A DNA stretch of 63,369 nucleotides from Gluconobacter kanchanaburiensis NBRC 103587 (lineage in GTDB: Bacteria > Pseudomonadota > Alphaproteobacteria > Acetobacterales > Acetobacteraceae). The stretch lies in the NCBI RefSeq assembly GCF_007988905.1, contig NZ_BJVA01000015.1, positions 1 through 63,369 of the forward strand. Direction: 5' to 3'. This document shows positions 13,822 through 36,185 of this stretch, in pieces. Below the pieces are notes generated by a model. It saw only the letters and a list, made by a program, of their open reading frames with translations, did no database searches and was not told the origin of the DNA. Every line of letters starts with the position of its first letter. The stretch's first letter is position 1. The position numbers and the translations under genes are program-made.

Positions 13822-13843
13822 GATTTGTCTGGCGGAGAGGGTG
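13822..13843 (+). repeat. Left attachment site (partial copy of the tRNA-Ser 3' end)
   Basis: The sequence matches 36088-36109 at 21 of 22 positions and includes the encoded CCA end, discriminator base and acceptor strand of the tRNA-Ser gene (in reverse complement). With a few more bases upstream, 27 of 30 positions agree. Beyond the repeat the tRNA sequence is lost, so this is the remnant copy left by integration. Confidence 0.85.
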
Positions 13844-13993: not shown

Positions 13994-15286
13994 ATGAGCA
14001 AGCTGCCGCCGAACCAGATGAATGCCCGCAAGGTCGCCTCCCTTAAAGACGGGGTTCACGGCGATGGCGGAAATTTATGGATTACCGTCCGGGGCGACAC
14101 CCGGGCTTGGACCTTCCGCTATAAAAGTCCAAAGACCGGCAAAAGACGGGAGATGGGACTCGGTCCCGCCCGGGATATTTCTCTGGCCGATGCCCGGCTC
14201 CGGGCAGCCGAGAACCGGTGCCTGCTTCTGGAAGGGCTCGACCCTCTCGAAGAGAAAGCCCGGCAGAAGGGACCTGACGTTCAGGAGCGCACCTTCGCAC
14301 AGGTTGCCGAGCAGTACATCACCGAACAGGCGCCGGGCTGGAAAGATCCGCGCTCGGCGCCCATGTGGCGCAGCTCTCTGGAGCGTCATGTTTCTCCCAT
14401 CCTCGGTCAGAAACCGATTGGCAGCGTGCAGACAGAGGACGTGCTCGCCGTCCTGCGACCGATCTGGGAGAGCACGACCGAAACCGCAACACGGCTGCGT
14501 GGACGGATGGAGCGTATTCTGGACTATGCGCAGAGCCATCACTGGCGCGAGGGTGAGAACCCGGCCCGCTGGCGGGGGCATCTGGCGAACATCCTTCCCA
14601 AACCCACGGCCGTCACGAAGGTGGTGCACCATGCCGCCTTGCCCTATCGCGACCTCCCGCCGGTCTACAGCCGGCTCAGCGCCGAGCACGGTGTAGGAGC
14701 TTTGGCCGCACGGTTCGTCTGCCTGACCGCAACCCGGTCTGGCGAGGTCCGCAAGGCCCTGTGGTCGGAGATCGATCTGAAGAAAAAGATCTGGACCATC
14801 CCGGCCGAGCGGATGAAGGCCGGGCGGGAGCATCGTGTGCCCCTGACGAACGGAGCGATGGCATTGCTGTATAAAGTCCAGACCCTGAGATCCACTTCCG
14901 GTGAGGACAGTTTCGTGTTTCCCGGTGGCCGGGTTGGATCACCGCTGAGCGATGTCGCGGTCTCCAAAGCCCTCCATCAGGCCGCAGGCACGAAGGATGT
15001 GACGATCCATGGTTTGCGCTCCAGCTTCCGGGACTGGGCGGCTGAGGAAACCGACTTTCCACGCGAGGTCGCCGAAATGGCGTTGGCCCATGCCATCGGT
15101 GACAAGGTCGAGGCGGCCTATCGCCGCGGGGATCTCTTCAACAGGCGTTCAGAGATGATGTTTGCCTGGGAACGCTTCTGTGCCGGGCAATCCAGTGAGG
15201 CGGTCGCAAAGCCTTCGCGTCCCAATCCTGACAGCGCCCCGCTCTTCACCTGGAAAGACTCTGAAACCGGGGATCCAGATGCCTGA
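13994..15286 (+). CDS. P4-type tyrosine site-specific integrase
   Basis: This 430-residue recombinase has the N-terminal arm-binding domain of P4-like integrases (KVASLKDGVHGDGGNLWITV), a core-binding domain around residues 95-190 and a catalytic domain with the first Arg in TATRSGEVRKALW, the HxxR box in IHGLRSSFRDWAAE, a His in MALAHAIG and the nucleophile Tyr in VEAAYRRGD. All catalytic residues are present, so it is probably active. It would insert the island into the 3' end of tRNA-Ser, although here it lies at the end away from the intact tRNA gene. The length is normal for the family. Confidence 0.95.
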   Translation: MSKLPPNQMNARKVASLKDGVHGDGGNLWITVRGDTRAWTFRYKSPKTGKRREMGLGPARDISLADARLRAAENRCLLLEGLDPLEEKARQKGPDVQERTFAQVAEQYITEQAPGWKDPRSAPMWRSSLERHVSPILGQKPIGSVQTEDVLAVLRPIWESTTETATRLRGRMERILDYAQSHHWREGENPARWRGHLANILPKPTAVTKVVHHAALPYRDLPPVYSRLSAEHGVGALAARFVCLTATRSGEVRKALWSEIDLKKKIWTIPAERMKAGREHRVPLTNGAMALLYKVQTLRSTSGEDSFVFPGGRVGSPLSDVAVSKALHQAAGTKDVTIHGLRSSFRDWAAEETDFPREVAEMALAHAIGDKVEAAYRRGDLFNRRSEMMFAWERFCAGQSSEAVAKPSRPNPDSAPLFTWKDSETGDPDA

Positions 15287-21737: not shown

Positions 21738-23900
21738 ATGAAACTAAACAAAGTCGCGATCCGCAATTTTCGGCGTCTCGAGAACGTGACGATCGACATC
21801 GAGACGAAGGAGACGGTGTTCGTCGGTCCCAACAATAGCGGGAAAACGTCGGCGACAGCAGTCTTCCGTGCCTTTCTCGACGGGCGGGAATTCAAGATTC
21901 ACGATTTCTCAGTGGCTCGCCTTGCCGATTTCGAAGCCTTTGCCACAACTGGCGACGCCGCAGACCTGCCCAAAATTGAGCTCGATCTGTGGTTTGAAAT
22001 TGACCCTAACACGGTCGCCTTCGGCCGTGTCTTCACGCTTCTTCCCAAGCTGTCCGACTTCACCAAGGTCGGCCTTCGGCTGCAGTTCGGCATTGAGGAA
22101 CCGAAAAAGCTCCGCGAAGAATATTTCGCCGCCTACCCGATCGGCGATGATGGCAAGCGCGCACGGAGCCTCTATCAATACCTCGCAACCGACACCAATC
22201 TCGCGCGACACGGGATCACGCGATACGCATCACTCGAGGAAATAAAGGGTGAGGATGGCGAGGTCGCCGCCGATGCGACGCCCCTAGAACCAGACGAGGG
22301 CAAGCGGCTTGTTCGTCAACTCATCCGCGTCCGGTTCGTTGATGCGCAGCGCAACATCAATGACGACGATGACAGTCGCAGCAATCGGCTTTCCGCCGCC
22401 TTTGCTACGTTTTACCGCAAGAATCTCGACCAGGCCCAGTCGGCCGCCGAAGCGCATCGCGTGATCGATGAAAATAATGCCGATCTCACAAAACACTACG
22501 AAAAGCAGTTCGCGCCGCTTATCAACCTTATCAAAGATTTGGGCGTGCCGTCGGTCAACGATCGTGACCTAAAGATCGTCTCGTCGCTCAGTCCAGAAAG
22601 CGCTTTGCGGGGCAATACCGAACTCATTTATGTCGATCCCGGCCGACAGCATGAACTGCCTGAACTCTACAATGGTTTGGGCTTCAAGAATCTCATCTAT
22701 ATGGCGATCCAAGCGCGCCATTTCCATTCGCAGTGGGTCGCCACGCCGGAAAGCCGGCCGCTCTGCTTGCTCATCTTTATCGAAGAGCCTGAAGTACATC
22801 TCCACGCCCAGGTCCAGCAAACCTTCATCGCCAATATCTGGAGCGTGATCGACGCATCGGCCAAAGCGGCCGAACACCCGACGTTAGTGCCTCAACTCGT
22901 CGTTACCACACATTCGTCTCACATCCTCGACGCGGTCGATTTCGAGAAGGTCCGCTATTTCCAACGATGTTATCTTGCGGGCGAAGATACCCCGAATGCC
23001 ATCCGCAATGCATCCTCCGTCCGCAGCTTGCGAGCGTTCCAACCGGAAGCCGATGTCGTTGATGGCACAGTGATCTCGCCCGCCGACACGTTGATATTCC
23101 TGAAGCGCTATCTGCGACTTACGCATTGCGACCTATTTTTTGCTGACGCCGCTGTTCTGGTCGAGGGTGCCGCCGAAAAGCTTCTCCTGCCGTCGATGAT
23201 CGAAACGGCGGCGGCGCGCCTCCGTGCATGCTATCTGACTATCCTTGAGGTCGGGGGCGCCTATGCTCACCGTTTTGAGGGGCTGCTCGACTTCCTGCGC
23301 ATTCCCTATCTGGTCGTAACCGACCTCGATTCTGTCGCGCCGACCGGATATCCAACCACGTGCCGCGCCGATGTTTCGGGCGCCCGAACGTCGAATGCCT
23401 CGCTGAAGAAGCTATGTGGCAAAAGCACGGTGGCTGACCTGCTGGCCATGACTGCGAGCGACAAAATCGACAGCATAAAGGATCGCTGCATCGCCTTTGA
23501 AATGACAGTGACAGTCAGCGAGGGCGGCATGCAGATACCCATGACGCCGCGAACGCTTGAAGAAGCCATTTCCTACGAGAACTTTGCATTGCTTCGCGCA
23601 AATACTTTATCAATCGGCAAGACTATCCCGCCACTGCTGCCCGACGCCTACACTGTTATCTACGAGCGCATCGGATCCAAAGATTTTAAGAAAACCGACT
23701 TCGCAATGGATCTGCTGGCGATGAAATCGACCTGGATCGTTCCCGCGTATATAGCCGAAGGGTTGCGCTGGCTGGAGAAGAGATTGTGCGGTGCCCCCCC
23801 GCCGTCCCAATCGTCATCGCTCGTACCAACACCGACGTCGGCTTCGCCGTCGCCAGTTTCCTCCTCATCACCGCAAGCGGGAGTGGGAGCGAGCGCATGA
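21738..23900 (+). CDS. OLD-family ATPase-TOPRIM nuclease (GajA-like)
   Basis: The 720-residue protein has an SMC/ABC-like ATPase with Walker A GPNNSGKTSA (residues 30-39), Walker B FIEEPEVHLHAQ (about 345-357) and the switch segment THSSHILD (about 390). A TOPRIM domain follows, with the metal-binding Glu in VLVEGAAEKLL (about 472) and the DxD in VVTDLDS (about 524). This is the class-2 OLD layout, defined by an adjacent UvrD-like helicase as in Gabija (GajA). It is longer than the roughly 580 residues of studied GajA proteins, with a C-terminal extension ending in a Ser/Pro-rich tail. The stop overlaps the helicase start. A role in DNA-cleaving antiphage defence is inferred from the family. 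Confidence 0.92.
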   Translation: MKLNKVAIRNFRRLENVTIDIETKETVFVGPNNSGKTSATAVFRAFLDGREFKIHDFSVARLADFEAFATTGDAADLPKIELDLWFEIDPNTVAFGRVFTLLPKLSDFTKVGLRLQFGIEEPKKLREEYFAAYPIGDDGKRARSLYQYLATDTNLARHGITRYASLEEIKGEDGEVAADATPLEPDEGKRLVRQLIRVRFVDAQRNINDDDDSRSNRLSAAFATFYRKNLDQAQSAAEAHRVIDENNADLTKHYEKQFAPLINLIKDLGVPSVNDRDLKIVSSLSPESALRGNTELIYVDPGRQHELPELYNGLGFKNLIYMAIQARHFHSQWVATPESRPLCLLIFIEEPEVHLHAQVQQTFIANIWSVIDASAKAAEHPTLVPQLVVTTHSSHILDAVDFEKVRYFQRCYLAGEDTPNAIRNASSVRSLRAFQPEADVVDGTVISPADTLIFLKRYLRLTHCDLFFADAAVLVEGAAEKLLLPSMIETAAARLRACYLTILEVGGAYAHRFEGLLDFLRIPYLVVTDLDSVAPTGYPTTCRADVSGARTSNASLKKLCGKSTVADLLAMTASDKIDSIKDRCIAFEMTVTVSEGGMQIPMTPRTLEEAISYENFALLRANTLSIGKTIPPLLPDAYTVIYERIGSKDFKKTDFAMDLLAMKSTWIVPAYIAEGLRWLEKRLCGAPPPSQSSSLVPTPTSASPSPVSSSSPQAGVGASA

Positions 23901-25738
23901 CCGGTCGGGTCGAAACCCAAGCGGATGCCGACGTTCGGGCTTGTATCGATCGCCATCGCAGCTTCGCTCTTGTGGCAGGCGCAGGGTCGGGCAAGACGAC
24001 CTCTCTGATCGACGCGCTCGCCCGCGTGCGTGAGCGTGAAGGCCCGCAAATGAGGCAGAATGGGCAACGGGTCGCTTGCATCACCTTTACCAAACGAGCG
24101 GTGTCGGTGATTAAGACGCGGTTGGGGTTTGACGATCTCTATCTCGTGTCGACCCTCCACAGCTTCTTATGGGAACAGATCAGTCGCTTTCACGATGACA
24201 TCCGCCAGGCGCTGCGTGAAGGCCGGATCCCGGCACTCATCCAGAAAGAGCGCGACAAGGATAATGGAGGCAATAGCCGCGCAGCTACCGAGGCGCGCGC
24301 GAAAGCTGCAAGCTACGAGCAGGACATCGCCGCGCTCGATGCGGTCGCAAGCTTCAGATACGACGATGCCAAATGGGGCGACTATCCAGGCGGGCGGCTA
24401 GGCCATGACGACATCATCGAGATCGCCACCTATCTCTTTGCGCACAACGCCACATTCCGACGGATCACCGGGCTTCGCTTCCCTTATATTTTCGTCGACG
24501 AAGCGCAGGACACCTTTCCCGGCATTGTGAGCGGCCTCAACTTGGTCGGTGAGGGCGAAGGACTGCCGATAGTCGGCTACTTTGGCGACCCTTGGCAGCA
24601 GATTTACGATGGCAGTGCGGGGGACTTCACGGCTCCCGGGGAGGGTATGCCGATAACAAAAACCGAGAACTTCCGCTGCTCCGAGAGCGTCATCCGATTG
24701 CTCAACGCCTTCCGGACCGATGTCAAACAATATGCCGCGGGCGACAATGCCGGTCGTGAGGGAAGCGTTTTGTTTCGGCTGGTAAAGGCGGAAAAACCTG
24801 AGCTGCCGCGTAACCGCTATTCCGACGACCAGATCAAGCGGGCGCTCGCGCGTATGGACAAGGCGATGGCCGACTGGGGCTGGGCGGACCGCGACGACGT
24901 CATCAAGTTGTTCCTCGCCAATCAGATGATTGCCCGGCGGATGGGATTCGCCGAGCTCAATCGACTGTTCAATGGTCCCTACGCATCCACGCGGGCGGAG
25001 GAAGCCTTCGAGGCGGGTGAGCATTTCTTGGTTCAGCCGCTGACCACGATCCTCCATCCGCTCGTCGAGGCGCATGCGAACGATCGCAGTCGTGAGATAC
25101 TCGATGTTTTGCGCCGCAACAGCCCCGCATTCGCGGCCAACGGGCCCAATGCCGATAACACGCTCAAGGAGATGGTGGACACGTCACTCAGTCTCGTTGG
25201 GCAGCTTGCTGACCTCTGGGCTTCGGGAACCATTGGCGACATTCTGCGGTTCGGTGTGGCAAAACAGCTTATCCCGGCCGGGGACAGGTTGATCGAACAG
25301 CTTGATCGCCAGCCACGCGAGGAAGCGTATGTTGAAGAGGAGCACGCGCTCGATAAAGGCGACTGGCTTGCCGACCTGTTGTTCGCGATGAGACCTGACG
25401 AGATTGGGTCATACGCATCCTTTATCGGCGAGAACACGGCCTACAGCACGCAGCACGGCGTCAAAGGCGAGGAATATGCCAAGGTGATGATTGTCTATGA
25501 CGACGTCGAAGCGGCATGGAATCTTTATAATTTCAGCAAGACACTGACGCCATCGACGGCCGGCGAGCCGACCGACGGTCAGCGAGCGAGGGGGCAACGT
25601 CTTGCCTATGTATCGTTCTCGCGCGCGCTCGAGGATTTGCGCGTGCTGTTTTTTACCGCAAGCCCAGAAGCTGCTCGGCAAGAACTCATCGATCGTAAAT
25701 TAGTGAAACCCGAGCAAATCGAGATCGTGGGAATATAG
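23897..25738 (+). CDS. UvrD/Rep-family helicase paired with the OLD nuclease (GajB-like)
   Basis: From the ATG at 23897 (overlapping the upstream stop as ATGA) the protein has 613 residues. Superfamily 1 motifs are complete: I AGAGSGKTTSL (about 27-37), Ia CITFTKRAV, II FVDEAQD (about 199), III GYFGDPWQQIYDG (about 230), IV ENFRCSESVIRLLN and VI YVSFSRALEDLRVLFF (about 570). In Gabija systems the UvrD-like partner binds the OLD nuclease and is required for defence. A longer reading with a start at 23786 overlaps the upstream gene and is unlikely. Confidence 0.92.
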   Translation: MTGRVETQADADVRACIDRHRSFALVAGAGSGKTTSLIDALARVREREGPQMRQNGQRVACITFTKRAVSVIKTRLGFDDLYLVSTLHSFLWEQISRFHDDIRQALREGRIPALIQKERDKDNGGNSRAATEARAKAASYEQDIAALDAVASFRYDDAKWGDYPGGRLGHDDIIEIATYLFAHNATFRRITGLRFPYIFVDEAQDTFPGIVSGLNLVGEGEGLPIVGYFGDPWQQIYDGSAGDFTAPGEGMPITKTENFRCSESVIRLLNAFRTDVKQYAAGDNAGREGSVLFRLVKAEKPELPRNRYSDDQIKRALARMDKAMADWGWADRDDVIKLFLANQMIARRMGFAELNRLFNGPYASTRAEEAFEAGEHFLVQPLTTILHPLVEAHANDRSREILDVLRRNSPAFAANGPNADNTLKEMVDTSLSLVGQLADLWASGTIGDILRFGVAKQLIPAGDRLIEQLDRQPREEAYVEEEHALDKGDWLADLLFAMRPDEIGSYASFIGENTAYSTQHGVKGEEYAKVMIVYDDVEAAWNLYNFSKTLTPSTAGEPTDGQRARGQRLAYVSFSRALEDLRVLFFTASPEAARQELIDRKLVKPEQIEIVGI

Positions 25739-26399
25739 CCGCCGCGACACGTTGATGCGACAGGCTGCGCTGCCGATTGCCATGGTCCCAATTATAAGTT
25801 CAGAATTCTGCCTCTACCGGCCGCACCTTGCGAGGCGCGGCTATGCTGGTCGTCATGGTATTAGTCCGGTTTTCCGGTCGGCCGACGAAATAGCTCTCAG
25901 GCCGCAGTCGGCCCATTCTTTGACCCTCGGCTATCCCGGTCAGGCAAACGCTGATTGTCGGCTTCTGTCAAAAGTAGCCGTTTTACTTACCGTTCTGGAG
26001 CCGTAGAAAAGTCCCAAACGCGGTCTATCGCGGGTCGCATGACAATGTCGGCTTTTGGGCAACCGCCATCACTACTTCGACGTCCGACATGTAAGCGACT
26101 GCCGCCTGTCTGCTCCTATATGACTGAGCGGACAGGCAGATCAGGGGGGGAGAGCAGACTGTCCGCTTTGGATGCCCCGGACAATGTTTCGCGGCGTTTA
26201 TTCAACTAAGTGTGACGGACACTGTGCGCACGAGACGGTCATTAGAGCTTATTGTCGGCGTAACGGAAAGCAGCCGTGAAGTGTTAGAAAGAATGCTTTT
26301 TCAATACCCCACGAATAGAGAAATAGGTGGTATTGTACTGAATAAGAAACTCTCCCCTTGGTCTACTTGACAAAAACCAGATCGGAATCACAATAAATT
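25739..26399. other. Intergenic stretch carrying a repeat and a hairpin
   Basis: No convincing gene is present in these 661 bp. The middle holds copy A of a dispersed repeat (25941-26097) followed by a strong inverted repeat, GCCTGTCTGCTC / GAGCGGACAGGC, at 26104-26137 (11 of 12 pairs). From about 26215 the sequence turns AT-rich and leads into the next gene. Confidence 0.5.
25941..26097 (+). repeat. Dispersed intergenic repeat, copy A
   Basis: The stretch aligns with 30556-30717 in the same orientation. The best block starts at 26011 (GTCCCAAACGCGGTCTATCG) and continues through GTCGGCTTT, GGGCAACCGCCA and ACTTCGA to GTAAGCG; a second block at 25941 shares GCAAACGCTGA. The two copies flank the 26.1-30.6 kb gene group. 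Confidence 0.7.
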
Positions 26400-27035
26400 A
26401 TGGCCCTTAAGACGTTCCCCATAGAAAGACAAAGAAAACTGGAAGAAAAGCTAGTGCGACGCTTAGTTGAGGGGACTGCTGCTTGGCTAACCTTTAAACA
26501 AGCAACTTCGGCGAGAACTCTATACAGCGAGCATTTTTTATATCCTCCGTTGTTCGAAATCGGTTTTGGCCGAGGTTGGAAGGCAGTTGCTCAGGTGCCC
26601 GTAACGAAAGCGACACCTACGGCGGGGGCACCCAAGACACTCGATTTTGTATTTTTTAAGAATTCAAAGAGCAGCACAGCGGCGGTAATGATAGAGGTTA
26701 AATTTCTAAGAGGTACCAATACCTCCCAAGAACTTGCTGCATTATACTATGATTTCAAAAAACTTAGGGACGTATCTATCAAGAAAATTGATAACGCCAC
26801 ATTAAATACACTCGAATGCGCGCCAGGAAAGTGGCAAATTATTGTTGCTCAACGCGATGTATATGAAAAGATTTTGAAATCAAACTCGGTGAGGCGCGAA
26901 GATGTAGCTTCCATGTTGAGGCGTGCACGTGAGGGAACGCTAACGTCGGCATATAAATCAGTTATAGAAACGAAGCTAAAGAAAGAATTTCATTGGCATG
27001 TATTTGCGATCGGCGAAGATGATTGGCCGAAATAG
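26400..27035 (+). CDS. Candidate PD-(D/E)xK nuclease, AT-rich gene
   Basis: The 211-residue product shows Glu53 in PPLFEIG, Asp82 in KTLDFVFF and the ExK pair Glu99/Lys101 in VMIEVKFLRG. That is the order and spacing of a PD-(D/E)xK nuclease core with an intact catalytic set. The gene is clearly more AT-rich than the genes around it, with different codon use (AAA, TTA, ATA), pointing to a separate transfer event. It stands alone between intergenic stretches. Restriction or Cap4-like effector nucleases are possible relatives; the exact family was not recognised. Confidence 0.7.
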   Translation: MALKTFPIERQRKLEEKLVRRLVEGTAAWLTFKQATSARTLYSEHFLYPPLFEIGFGRGWKAVAQVPVTKATPTAGAPKTLDFVFFKNSKSSTAAVMIEVKFLRGTNTSQELAALYYDFKKLRDVSIKKIDNATLNTLECAPGKWQIIVAQRDVYEKILKSNSVRREDVASMLRRAREGTLTSAYKSVIETKLKKEFHWHVFAIGEDDWPK

Positions 27036-27404
27036 ATATTGCGACCATAAAGAAATCGTGGTTCAGTAACGCCACGGTTGGTTCTAAAATACGTCTCTGA
27101 ATAATTAAACGCAACGATCTATTCGGATTAAAGGGCGATGGAATGCCTGGGCGTTGCACATTCTACTCCAATTCCGTGTCTACTTTTGTATTTATACACT
27201 GAAAGCAAACCCTCCTCTTCCACTCCAACTCGATCGCGAGAGATCGCGCTGCTCATGTCTGCTATGCAGCAAGCCGTTCATAGGCACATACGCCCGACAG
27301 GAAGCCGACAGCCTCCTGTCCGCTCAAGAAGATGGGGTAGGCCGGCTTGGAAGGGTATGACAAATTGGTCAGCCAGATGTGCCTTCCGCCACCGTGACGA
27401 GCGA
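27036..27404. other. Intergenic region without recognised features
   Basis: These 369 bp separate the candidate nuclease from the 3' end of the next minus-strand gene. The first 100 bp are AT-rich. No hairpin with a T-run and no protein-like reading frame were seen. Confidence 0.4.
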
Positions 27405-28529
27405 TCAGCTCTGCCTTTGGGTCCAAGCGCGATAGGCTTCGCGCAGTTCGGCCTCGATCCGCGCGAGTTCGGCATCATAGACGCGGATTCCAGTGGGTTG
27501 CTCCGAAATCTCCTGAGCGAGCACCACCATCTGCCAGGCAGCATAGTCGTGGAAGGGATTCAGTCCGACGACGTTGCCAAGGAGCGGATCGCTCGGAGCA
27601 GGCGCTGCCATAATTTGCGCGAATTTGCCGATCGCCGCGTTCAATTGCCAGTCCGAGACGAACAGGATGAGGGCACACAAGGCCATCAGCGCTGGCGGCG
27701 CACCCTTCCACCGATATTCGCTGGGTTTAGACCGGCTGAAGTCGAGTCCGGAGTTACGTCCGACGAAGGACGCGAGCTGGAGAGTCAGCTCATAACTCGG
27801 CTTGAGCGCCGCTGGGTCAAACACCTCTTGGCCCGCATAGCATGCGACCAAGTGCTTCGTTCGCGATTCGGCATTGCGAAGACGCCTGCCAGACATGTGA
27901 TCGAAAAGTGGCCAAAACTGCTCGGTGAATGCATGATTTGTCGCCTGCTTCCAGTCGAAGCCAGGAAGTTGCGCCTGCACAGGGTGGAAGACCCATCGTG
28001 GGTAGATAGGGTGACGCAGGAGCGCAGAGAGCCAATCTACTGCCGTCGAATTAATAGTGATGGTAAAGCGGTTTGCCGCCTTCAGATCGAAAAACCATTG
28101 CCGCATTCCCCGGATCGCGGTCTGGTCGAAGATACCCTGTTCGATCCCCTTGCAGACGAGCCGGCCGATAAGACGGGTCTCGATAGTTTTGGCACTTCCG
28201 AAGTTGACGAGACTTTCGGACTGCCGCTCTTGGCCATCGGCTCCGTGGAACTCGCAAAAGCGGTGGTGAGCGTCCATGGCATCGTCGCCGATGAAGCGAA
28301 AATGCGCTTGTCGGGTGCCACCCCGTGTGCCAGTGGACTTGGTTGCCCGCACAATCTGGGCGCCGCCCACTCCGCAGGACGAGCAGCGTACGTCAGTCCG
28401 GATCCAAGCGCGCTGAGCCTCCGAGAGGTGATCCTCACTCGCTTCCGGCGTGTCCCACAGCATCAGGCGGGCGAGCTGGCCGACATCAAGTTCGCGTCTG
28501 AAATGGTTCGAAAAGGCGGTGGTGGGCAT
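27405..28529 (-). CDS. Unknown protein with an N-terminal zinc-finger-like cluster
   Basis: This 374-residue product has Cys49-x2-Cys52 (RCSSCG) and, after a 35-residue insert, His89-x2-Cys92-x2-His95 (HRFCEFHG), which could bind zinc. The rest is helical with a hydrophobic patch at about residues 289-305 (ALMALCALILFVSDW). I do not recognise a family. It lies downstream of the 479-residue gene on the same strand, with a MITE-like element in the gap, so the two may once have been a compact operon. The long frame on the opposite strand is its antisense shadow. Confidence 0.65.
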   Translation of the reverse strand: MPTTAFSNHFRRELDVGQLARLMLWDTPEASEDHLSEAQRAWIRTDVRCSSCGVGGAQIVRATKSTGTRGGTRQAHFRFIGDDAMDAHHRFCEFHGADGQERQSESLVNFGSAKTIETRLIGRLVCKGIEQGIFDQTAIRGMRQWFFDLKAANRFTITINSTAVDWLSALLRHPIYPRWVFHPVQAQLPGFDWKQATNHAFTEQFWPLFDHMSGRRLRNAESRTKHLVACYAGQEVFDPAALKPSYELTLQLASFVGRNSGLDFSRSKPSEYRWKGAPPALMALCALILFVSDWQLNAAIGKFAQIMAAPAPSDPLLGNVVGLNPFHDYAAWQMVVLAQEISEQPTGIRVYDAELARIEAELREAYRAWTQRQS

Positions 28530-29028
28530 CAGGAATAACTATCAGCTTTGGCGCGTTATTTGAACTCAAGAATGAGTCGTACTTCGTCGTTTCAGCTGAT
28601 TACAGGCATGCATCGTATTTATGAGGCCACCGATCAGTCTTGCCCATTCATCGGGGCAGCGTCGCCACTGAGTGAATGTCCGTTGGCACCGAAACTGGCT
28701 ATGGCCGAGCATGTTTGTGAACGACCATTTTGTCCCGATTGTGTTGAAAAAGTCCCTCTGGAGCTTCTACTCAACATTTAGGTTCGATATGATAATGGAT
28801 AGAGCTTTGTAATCATGGTGAATTTTCATTCCCAATTGCATACAAAATCCTGAGCAGACACCTCAATCTGACTTTTTCAACACAATCTCCCAGAACCAGT
28901 CGTTCGCCGGTCGAGTTCTGAACGGTAACTTCTAACGTAACTTGCCATTCGCTCCGCGCGAAGCCCTCTGGCAGCGCGCGCCTTATTATCAGCCGTGTAT
29001 GGCTGTCTTCACAGACGCCGGAAGCGCC
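28530..29028. other. Intergenic region containing a MITE-like element
   Basis: These 499 bp separate two unknown minus-strand genes. A 151-bp element with perfect terminal inverted repeats occupies 28737-28887. The flanks (28530-28736 and 28888-29028) show no protein-like frame; a short frame at 28548-28781 runs into the element and is not convincing. Confidence 0.5.
28737..28887. mobile_element. MITE-like element with 18-bp perfect terminal inverted repeats
   Basis: GATTGTGTTGAAAAAGTC at 28737-28754 and its exact reverse complement at 28870-28887 bound a 151-bp AT-rich segment with no coding capacity. The four bases TCCC lie directly outside both ends (28733-28736 and 28888-28891), consistent with a target-site duplication. 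Non-autonomous elements of this kind are moved by a transposase encoded elsewhere that recognises the same ends; none is in this window. Confidence 0.8.
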
Positions 29029-30468
29029 TTATATCGACCAGACCTTCCGGGGGATGTTCCGCCCTGGATATTTGTCCTTGCGCTTGCGCGGCGCCTTCGG
29101 AGTGGGGATGTCGAAGCCTTCCTCATCCTTTTCGGGCTCGATGCCCGACTGAATGGCAAACACCACACCCTTCTGCCCCTGCAGCGCGCCACGCAGATAG
29201 GAAAGAAGCTCGCGTCCCTGATGGGCGGACGTACCAACCCAGCCGCGGCGGACCAAATCCGTGAACGCCGAAGGTGTGAGCCGCCGTTGGCCGAAGGTAT
29301 GGTCGAAGACGATCGTCCCGCCACGTTTGCCCTTCGCCCGCGGGTCACTCGCCAAGCGCTTCCAGTAGCTGAGCGGGACATAGATCCCAGGAACATGGCC
29401 GGTCACCTTCGCTGGAATGAGCTTACTGCAGAACTTGAGAAAGAATGGGTCGGAGCCGATCCGGTAACCATCGCAACTCGTGTCCGCGGCGACTTTCGCC
29501 AGCTCGCGGGCAGCAGAATCCATCCGTGCAATCTCAATGCCGAGTTGGGGATCGACCCGATAACCGAGTTCTCCGTCCTCCCCCCTGAACATCTTGTATT
29601 GGACGAACACAACGGAGTGGTACGTCTCATTGTAGTAGATGAGGTCAACGCCAAGCTGCTTTTCCAGATCAAGCTTATTGGCCAGAATTACGGTCAGTTG
29701 CGTGTTGCCGTCACGATACATCTTCGCCGCGTAACGCTGACGCTTAACGAATTCCCAGTCATCGCCGGGAGTGTCCGCGTCCTGCAGGATGACGAGATCC
29801 TCGATCGAAACCATGTCTTCATCGCTGTCGAAGATCGAGGCCGTATCGTCGGCGAGGTTGTCTGGCGCGTGTGCGGGCAGTTCGAGCCAAGCCGAAGGAA
29901 TCCCAGCAATCTCCATCGCCGTGATAACGGCGTCGCGCTGGAAAGCCCAATTGATGCGTGCGTTAACCGGCTCCGCATCATCATCACGGTCGTCGCGCGC
30001 ATCGATCAGCCCCGCAGCGATGCCATAGGCGTCAGCATCGAGGGCCTCCAGCGCCTTCATTAATACTACAAAGGCAGCACCTGACACGTGACCGCCCTTT
30101 AACGCCAGCTTGGCCCGCCATGCCTGCGGCCCGCTCATACGACGTGATAAGGTGGTTAGAGTGACCGGTTTGGCGAGCTCGGACAAACTCCAGATATCCA
30201 GCTTATCGCGCCCGGATTCTGCCGGATAATATGCCGTCGCCCGCGCGATATGCGTGAACTTTCCGCGCGCGGCGCTAACAAAGCAGAGAAGGGGTTTGCC
30301 GCGCAGAGCGCTCGGAACTTTCGGAACCGCCTTGCTGCAGAGTCCGCTTACCCGCAGATCGTCCTCCAGGATTTCCAATTCTCCTGGCGTCAATAGCAGG
30401 ACGTAACCCTCACCGGGAATCCAAGCTTCACGCGACAACAAATACTGAGCTGAAGGTGGCACGATCAT
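29029..30468 (-). CDS. Unknown protein with a candidate nuclease core (D...QxK)
   Basis: The product has 479 residues. The central segment NKLDLEKQLGVDLIYYN followed by SVVFVQYKMFRG has Glu269, Asp275, Gln290 and Lys292 in the arrangement of a PD-(D/E)xK-like nuclease of the QxK variety. The N-terminal 240 residues are unassigned and rich in acidic stretches (DARDDRDDDAEP). The C-terminus is basic and proline-rich (PTPKAPRKRKDKYPGRN), fitting nucleic acid contact. No signal or membrane segment is present. Its position next to a Gabija-like pair suggests defence, but this is inference. Confidence 0.65.
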   Translation of the reverse strand: MIVPPSAQYLLSREAWIPGEGYVLLLTPGELEILEDDLRVSGLCSKAVPKVPSALRGKPLLCFVSAARGKFTHIARATAYYPAESGRDKLDIWSLSELAKPVTLTTLSRRMSGPQAWRAKLALKGGHVSGAAFVVLMKALEALDADAYGIAAGLIDARDDRDDDAEPVNARINWAFQRDAVITAMEIAGIPSAWLELPAHAPDNLADDTASIFDSDEDMVSIEDLVILQDADTPGDDWEFVKRQRYAAKMYRDGNTQLTVILANKLDLEKQLGVDLIYYNETYHSVVFVQYKMFRGEDGELGYRVDPQLGIEIARMDSAARELAKVAADTSCDGYRIGSDPFFLKFCSKLIPAKVTGHVPGIYVPLSYWKRLASDPRAKGKRGGTIVFDHTFGQRRLTPSAFTDLVRRGWVGTSAHQGRELLSYLRGALQGQKGVVFAIQSGIEPEKDEEGFDIPTPKAPRKRKDKYPGRNIPRKVWSI

Positions 30469-30789
30469 CTCACGGTGGCTGACAAACTTAGGCTACCGGA
30501 CCTAAAGGCCGCTTGGTCGGTGAGCAACAGATTTTTGTCGACCTACGATGCCGTTCACGCAAACGCTGAATGTCCGTTTCTCGCGAGAGATGCCGTTCGG
30601 ACTATCGATCAGAAACAGCAGGAGCGTCCCAAACGCGGTCTATCGCGGTTCACCTAAAAACGTCGGCTTTCGGGCAACCGCCACCCCCACTTCGATGTCT
30701 GACATGGCGCGTAAGCGGACAGGCGGCAGACGCCCTCATTTCGGTCGTAGAAAGCGATGAAGCGTGCCCCCGAAAGTGGAAATGGCTTT
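30469..30789. other. Intergenic region with copy B of the dispersed repeat
   Basis: These 321 bp lie between two minus-strand genes and hold repeat copy B (30556-30717). The short plus-strand frames across it follow the repeat and have no protein character. Confidence 0.5.
30556..30717 (+). repeat. Dispersed intergenic repeat, copy B
   Basis: This is the direct counterpart of 25941-26097. The conserved block begins at 30626 (GTCCCAAACGCGGTCTATCG) and ends with GTAAGCG at about 30711-30717. Differences are scattered, so the copies are old or diverged before arrival. Confidence 0.7.
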
Positions 30790-31305
30790 TTATTGTATTC
30801 CACTCCCCATAAAATGAGGAACCAGTCGTCGAATGACCGAACGCTCTTCCTCAGAGACAATTTGTCGGTATGGTCCGATTCCATTGGGCGGCGTCACGGC
30901 TTGGTTATTCCTGTCTCTTATAGTAATATATCCGCTATTATCTATTAGAAGAGAAAGGTAAGCTTTTGCATTAACATAGTCATATCTATGACGGTCAGAA
31001 ATTGAAAACAATATGAAATCGCTTTCTGCTTGATTGGGAGTAAAATCGATCATAACGCCATCAATCTTACAAACAGCGTGGTGTTGGGCAACAATTCCCG
31101 TATCAATCATCCAAAATGCCCAACCGTTTATCACTTCTCCATTTTGAATGGAATTTGCTTTTGCATACGCGTTAAACCAACAATACCCTACTTTTAGATT
31201 ATTGTCCGGCTGCACATTTACTATTTCTGGACGTTCACAACCAATCTTCTGAACTAGAGCCTCAAGTAGAGGGTCGTTTTGTTTGGCGGGAAGAATTACT
31301 GTCAT
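30790..31305 (-). CDS. Unknown protein with a possible Cys-His-Asp catalytic triad, AT-rich gene
   Basis: From the ATG at 31305 the protein has 171 residues; the upstream ATGs would add nine residues. Conserved-looking positions are Cys42 in VGYCWFNAYAK, His75/His76 in AQHHAVCKIDG and Asp87 in MIDFTP, the order seen in papain-fold, transglutaminase-like and NlpC-like enzymes. The gene is AT-rich compared with its neighbours, hinting at separate acquisition. Its function is not known; a peptidase or amidase is only a suggestion. Confidence 0.6.
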   Translation of the reverse strand: MTVILPAKQNDPLLEALVQKIGCERPEIVNVQPDNNLKVGYCWFNAYAKANSIQNGEVINGWAFWMIDTGIVAQHHAVCKIDGVMIDFTPNQAESDFILFSISDRHRYDYVNAKAYLSLLIDNSGYITIRDRNNQAVTPPNGIGPYRQIVSEEERSVIRRLVPHFMGSGIQ

Positions 31306-31459
31306 AAGAACAGACTCGCAAAATATCATCAATCCAATAAGCTTTTAGAACTAAATGTCAAAACGAACCAGAGTCAGCTAAGATCGTAGTTTCCAAGGTT
31401 TCCGCGTCCCAAACCAGACATTCCTTTATCCCCCACTTAGCCGAATGACTACTGAGCAA

Positions 31460-35666: not shown

Positions 35667-36185
<519 letters not shown>

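Follow-up and report, generated by a model that had tools for sequence, protein, structure and literature searches.

A putative sensor-nuclease family without a library model, represented in a probable tRNA-Ser island of Gluconobacter kanchanaburiensis

The stretch of DNA analysed here (the window; positions 1 to 63,369 of contig NZ_BJVA01000015.1 from Gluconobacter kanchanaburiensis NBRC 103587) carries two adjacent genes on its minus strand that an initial annotation had put forward as an undescribed two-gene defence system. In the list of open reading frames (ORFs), the upstream gene, encoding a 479-residue protein, spans 29029-30468, and the downstream gene, encoding a 374-residue protein, spans 27405-28529, leaving a gap of 499 bp. 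Two plus-strand ORFs, at 27138-28538 (466 aa) and 28942-30063 (373 aa), run antisense to both genes and are presumably shadow ORFs. Within the gap lies a 151-bp element (28737-28887, no strand assigned) that resembles a miniature inverted-repeat transposable element (MITE), with terminal inverted repeats (GATTGTGTTGAAAAAGTC...) and TCCC on both sides, the latter probably duplicated from a 4-bp target; a single copy was found in the genome. The surroundings do resemble a defence setting, as initially described: a Gabija-type pair occupies 21738-25738 on the plus strand, with GajA at 21738-23900 and GajB at 23786-25738 as listed, its start not being settled. That pair is separate from the genes considered here, neither of whose products matches GajA (OLD ATPase-TOPRIM) or GajB (UvrD).

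The 479-residue protein had been singled out as a nuclease candidate from the order of four residues, E269, D275, Q290 and K292, and this assignment is upheld by conservation and predicted fold. All four residues lie at the positions given, and an alignment of 61 proteins shows no exception at any of them, nor at N264, Q271, G273, N280, E281 and Y291. An alignment of 86 loci, window included, represents a largely different sample and, counting only rows that have a residue at the position, retains E269 in 81/83, D275 in 81/84, Q290 in 83/83 and K292 in 82/83; the invariance of Q271 is confined to the 61-row set and does not extend to this one. The motif residues are still invariant in a 16-row set of distant members that includes the window protein. 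Conservation of E269, D275, Q290 and K292 far exceeds chance, and the predicted catalytic core delineated by the alignments (E269, D275 and Q290-Y291-K292; codons 269-292) corresponds to 29593-29664 on the minus strand by the ORF coordinates. The N-terminal half evolves faster than the nuclease half, with mean identities of 41% versus 59% in the 61-row set (1830 pairs) and 20% versus 39% in the distant set (120 pairs); the nuclease half is the more similar of the two in 1827/1830 and 120/120 pairs, respectively.

Remote-homology search and structure prediction, which the initial annotation had recommended for both proteins, are informative for this one. The AlphaFold2 model comprises an N-terminal EVE/YTH-like domain of the PUA superfamily (approximately residues 19-156) and a C-terminal PD-(D/E)XK nuclease domain of the QxK type (approximately residues 168-415), followed by the basic tail noted earlier (PRKRK...PGRNIPRK), where residues 432-461 are modelled at a predicted local distance difference test score (pLDDT) below 50. 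The core fold and the ordered acidic/QxK motif place the protein in the PD-(D/E)XK superfamily, with its catalytic residues intact. The nearest folds to the C-terminal domain are those of the Holliday-junction resolvases RecU and Hjc. From these small repair enzymes the 479-residue protein is set apart by its defence setting, its QxK motif and a domain resembling a sensor. Searches of Pfam, PADLOC, NCBIfam and PHROG yield no model for it, and the family, which comprises at least 332 proteins in a profile search (E up to 0.001), is unmatched in all four libraries; members are displayed in databases as hypothetical or uncharacterized protein. The earlier remark that neither family could be named therefore holds for this protein, while its neighbour belongs to phrog_12525, a family of unknown function. 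One database protein (P0105) joins methyltransferase-type domains (PF18135/PF07669) to the nuclease half of the family and is either a fusion or an assembly chimera.

Predicted fold assigns the N-terminal domain to the PUA-superfamily sensors of the EVE/YTH/SRA type, for which the sequence signal is weak. Its nearest structural neighbours are the EVE and YTH modified-base readers, with VcaM4I as the highest VIA match, an EVE-HNH modification-dependent restriction enzyme according to the accessible text of PMC7897488. The 479-residue protein would share with VcaM4I the joining of a PUA-superfamily reader to a nuclease, but VcaM4I employs an HNH nuclease in place of PD-(D/E)XK, and the 479-residue protein does not match the Pfam EVE profile PF01878 at E up to 1; because that profile is unmatched, we call the domain EVE/YTH-like and do not class it as EVE. 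The base-binding pocket of VcaM4I is formed by P24/W82/Y130.

On balance, we lean toward viewing the 479-residue protein as a restriction nuclease of the modification-dependent (type IV-like) kind that acts on its own and pairs a PUA-superfamily reader with a QxK PD-(D/E)XK cutter, the 374-residue gene being unrelated cargo. We posit, from the fold, that the N-terminal domain would bind and probably flip out a modified base of invading DNA; by analogy with VcaM4I (PMC7897488, accessible text), the flipped base would be accommodated in a pocket of this domain, whereupon the nuclease would cut. Cleavage of the marked DNA would fall to the QxK domain through E269, D275, Q290 and K292, as their conservation and the predicted fold suggest, and host DNA, in which the mark would be absent, would escape. 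An alternative that we judge unlikely, though not negligibly so, is that the PUA-like domain of a PD-(D/E)XK defence nuclease senses a trigger other than a DNA mark, for instance a phage protein, a nucleotide or an RNA, and that the enzyme then kills the infected cell or cuts RNA or any DNA. Some members of the PUA superfamily bind RNA, and Foldseek matches include YTH and ASCH; the N-terminal domain is highly variable, and no conserved aromatic pocket was found in it: an invariant aromatic set was seen in none of the 61-row, 86-locus and 16-row alignments, all of them comparisons of sequence. Yet VcaM4I, the highest VIA match to this domain, joins a nuclease to a reader of DNA bases, and the nuclease half resembles enzymes that act on DNA, RecU and Hjc.

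A modification-dependent restriction nuclease of this design has predicted precedents. Bell, Wolf and Koonin (2020, PMC7641849, accessible text) proposed a type IV role for EVE-PD(D/E)XK and YTH-like-PD(D/E)XK fusions, which share their predicted architecture and role with the 479-residue protein. The family itself, which may or may not figure in the census of that paper, matches no library searched here; the term BREX is absent from the main text, whereas the 479 family recurs in BREX loci. Among the accessible texts, supplements aside, we found none that names the family, its QxK site or its place beside SIR2-HerA in BREX. According to a 2026 paper (PMC12839542, accessible text), no nuclease effector is more prevalent in BREX and related systems than the PD-(D/E)XK type. 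The same text describes Shedu (SduA, DUF4263) as a nuclease of this type coupled to a variable sensor at its N terminus. The 479-residue protein likewise unites a PD-(D/E)XK nuclease with a variable N-terminal sensor-like domain, but matches neither SduA_C/DUF4263 in Pfam nor any PADLOC model, so that these sequence profiles do not class it as a Shedu protein, although it may still match Shedu in fold; hhalign with two Shedu nuclease domains gives P 0.56.

To survey the family, 84,980 species genomes were scanned and 80 of 82 confirmed stretches were retrieved. The 86 anchored loci include the window and a few duplicates, many with short flanks, and partners were typed by labelling each gene cluster from one tested member. 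Typed partners lie within the fetched flanks of 33/86 loci and are absent from those of 53/86; some of the partner-bearing loci are methyltransferase-bearing operons. The partners are PglX (10 loci), DUF6119 (9), BrxC (9), BrxHI (9), GajA-like (8), SIR2 (7), HsdR (7), GajB-like (7), HerA (6), PglZ (6), HsdM (6) and HsdS (4); DUF6119 is the sole typed partner in 6 of the 33, and a few others depend on one distant or opposite-strand gene. Six BREX loci, titled Burkholderiales, Achromobacter, Pseudomonas metagenome-assembled genome, Gallionella, Comamonas and Accumulibacter (two of which share sequence), have the common order BrxC, SIR2, HerA, 479-family gene, PglX. Six close relatives laid out side by side (L014, L016-L019, L021) show no constant partner. 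Only 2/195 genomes taken as relatives carry the family, that of the window and one other, and for this reason it looks like horizontally spread cargo.

These neighbourhoods bear on another reading, in which the 479-residue protein belongs to a machine encoded by several genes and depends on an ATPase/helicase or DUF6119 as obligatory partner, working in the window with the nearby Gabija or as an orphan. At 7 loci in other lineages, a GajA-like ATPase follows at most 52 bp downstream, and beyond it comes a UvrD helicase resembling GajB; the family gene touches DUF6119, with zero gap in 8/9 loci, and in still other lineages lies inside BREX. We nonetheless find such a machine improbable: the partner varies by lineage, 53/86 loci have no typed partner (some with short flanks), and the GajA/GajB pair of the window is 3.3 kb away from the 479-residue gene on the opposite strand. 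As a separate observation, the DUF6119 gene beside the family gene (L006, L044, L049-L052, L056, L058 and L062) falls within type I restriction-modification (RM) loci in three cases and is likely its functional couple; a literature search retrieved no relevant paper on DUF6119/TIGR04141.

Some phages evade restriction through base modification. The family is observed in BREX, type I RM and GajA/GajB-like operons of other lineages, and there a modification-dependent nuclease could perhaps supply an extra layer against phages shielded in this way. We tentatively extend this idea, with less assurance than the assignment of the window protein itself, to a widespread sensor-nuclease family, unnamed in the libraries searched, in which a near-frozen QxK core is joined to a fast-evolving EVE/YTH-like reader, with the base mark recognised differing from lineage to lineage, and which might serve as a portable second line against modified-genome phages, either on its own or housed in BREX (next to SIR2-HerA), type I RM and GajA/GajB-like operons. 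If the modification-dependent reading is right, a mark-reading nuclease module within BREX and type I RM loci would close the gap left by base-modified phages, and new modification-specific enzymes for the mapping of DNA marks could be drawn from the family.

The proposed partnership between the two genes fares worse than the nuclease, leaving the initial interpretation partly supported as a whole. None of the 29 loci of the 374 family, which represent 28 distinct places, holds a 479-family gene, and none of the 88 loci of the 479 family (at most 84 distinct) holds a 374-family gene, the window being excluded from both counts; the flanks compared extend 0-10 kb, and the loci include duplicates (L094=L129, L002=L013=L130, L023/L024 and L031/L032). 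Conserved neighbourhood was the test that the initial annotation had itself set, and the two-gene reading fails it because no locus reached holds both genes. Moreover, a relative of the same taxonomic family (G391) carries window positions 27294-28736 at 94.5% identity over 1443 bp (1443 alignment columns), abutted by a copy of a dispersed repeat described below, and has no 479-residue gene within 9.4 kb upstream or the remaining 0.9 kb downstream. This minus-strand segment, which includes the 374-residue gene and is probably a travelling unit, ends in the window exactly at the 151-bp inverted-repeat element, and the 499-bp gap between the genes is interrupted by a MITE-like insertion. The distributions also differ: at the E limits used, the 479 family appears in 9 plasmid records and no phage record, the 374 family in 264 and 4, respectively. 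The genes do lie adjacent on one strand in a defence setting, and for the closest relatives of both only protein records are available (P0002, P0003, P0122-P0134), so that their contigs are outside the co-occurrence counts; even so, we regard an undescribed two-gene defence system as very improbable. Independent arrival of the two genes is the simplest inference.

The 374-residue protein matches phrog_12525 over nearly its full length (residues 1-372 of 374, E 1.2e-71). The zinc-finger-like cluster attributed to it is real, but its HxxCxxH part is not conserved (H95 in 22/53 rows, H89 in 46/53); what is conserved is CxxC...H...HxxxC, that is, C49-x2-C52, H76 and H88-x3-C92, with C49, C52, H76, H88 and C92 invariant in 53/53 rows, and we infer that the cluster binds zinc. 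Its model is confident (pLDDT 87, predicted template modelling score 0.82), and no credible relative was found for it in the PDB. Relatives are present in 264/72,556 plasmid records and 4/50,697 phage records, two of the latter being SSU5; tblastn identity to Salmonella phage SSU5 is 34%. In genomes the family is scarce (2/395, 1/385 and 3/398, counting the window's own in each, with one of the last three partial). Apart from its zinc-finger-like residues the protein shows no fold that we recognise; the family is common on plasmids and SSU5-type phage-plasmids and is also carried by prophage-like contigs. The window copy differs from its phrog_12525 relatives in SSU5 and similar phage-plasmids in that it resides in a chromosomal contig. 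A PDC-S25-type SIR2 gene is near the 374-family gene in 6/29 loci (two tested with PADLOC, the rest assigned by similarity), and Gabija in 1/29. The SIR2 gene adjoins the family gene in L098 and L102-L106, where both gene orders occur.

Both genes, Gabija and others are probably carried on an integrated island of about 22 kb (13828-36109) at tRNA-Ser, as suggested by an att-like repeat linking 13828 with the tRNA-Ser 3′ end and by the tyrosine integrase alongside. The 16-bp direct repeat at 13828-13843 (plus strand), a copy of the tRNA-Ser 3′ end, recurs exactly at 36094-36109 (plus strand), with 26/28 positions shared when flank is included; the latter copy, at the 3′ end of tRNA-Ser(TGA) (36096-36185, minus strand), forms the right end of the probable island, and the integrase gene (Arm-DNA-bind_3, Phage_int_M and Phage_integrase; 13994-15286, plus strand) its left end. 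The two genes do lie between copies of a dispersed repeat, as initially described: plus-strand copies at 25933-26091 and 30548-30706 are 75% identical and are the only two found by similarity search of the genome (E up to 0.001). The repeat is intergenic, has a palindromic part (GACTGCCGCCTGTCTGCT...AGCGGACAGGCAG) and is present in 30/195 genomes taken as relatives, its own included; one copy elsewhere (L129:9077-9237) directly abuts the 374-gene segment. The repeat may mark cassette borders. Beside Gabija, a 211-residue protein (26400-27035, plus strand) displays a PD-(D/E)XK-like pattern (TLDFVFF...VMIEVKF) and is a second candidate nuclease; PADLOC, NCBIfam and PHROG give no match for it, Pfam only a sub-threshold one, and the G+C content of its gene is 43.7% versus 57.0% for the window. 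A 180-residue protein (30790-31332, minus strand) is matched weakly by phrog_37148 (E 2.9e-5) and has no other assignment.
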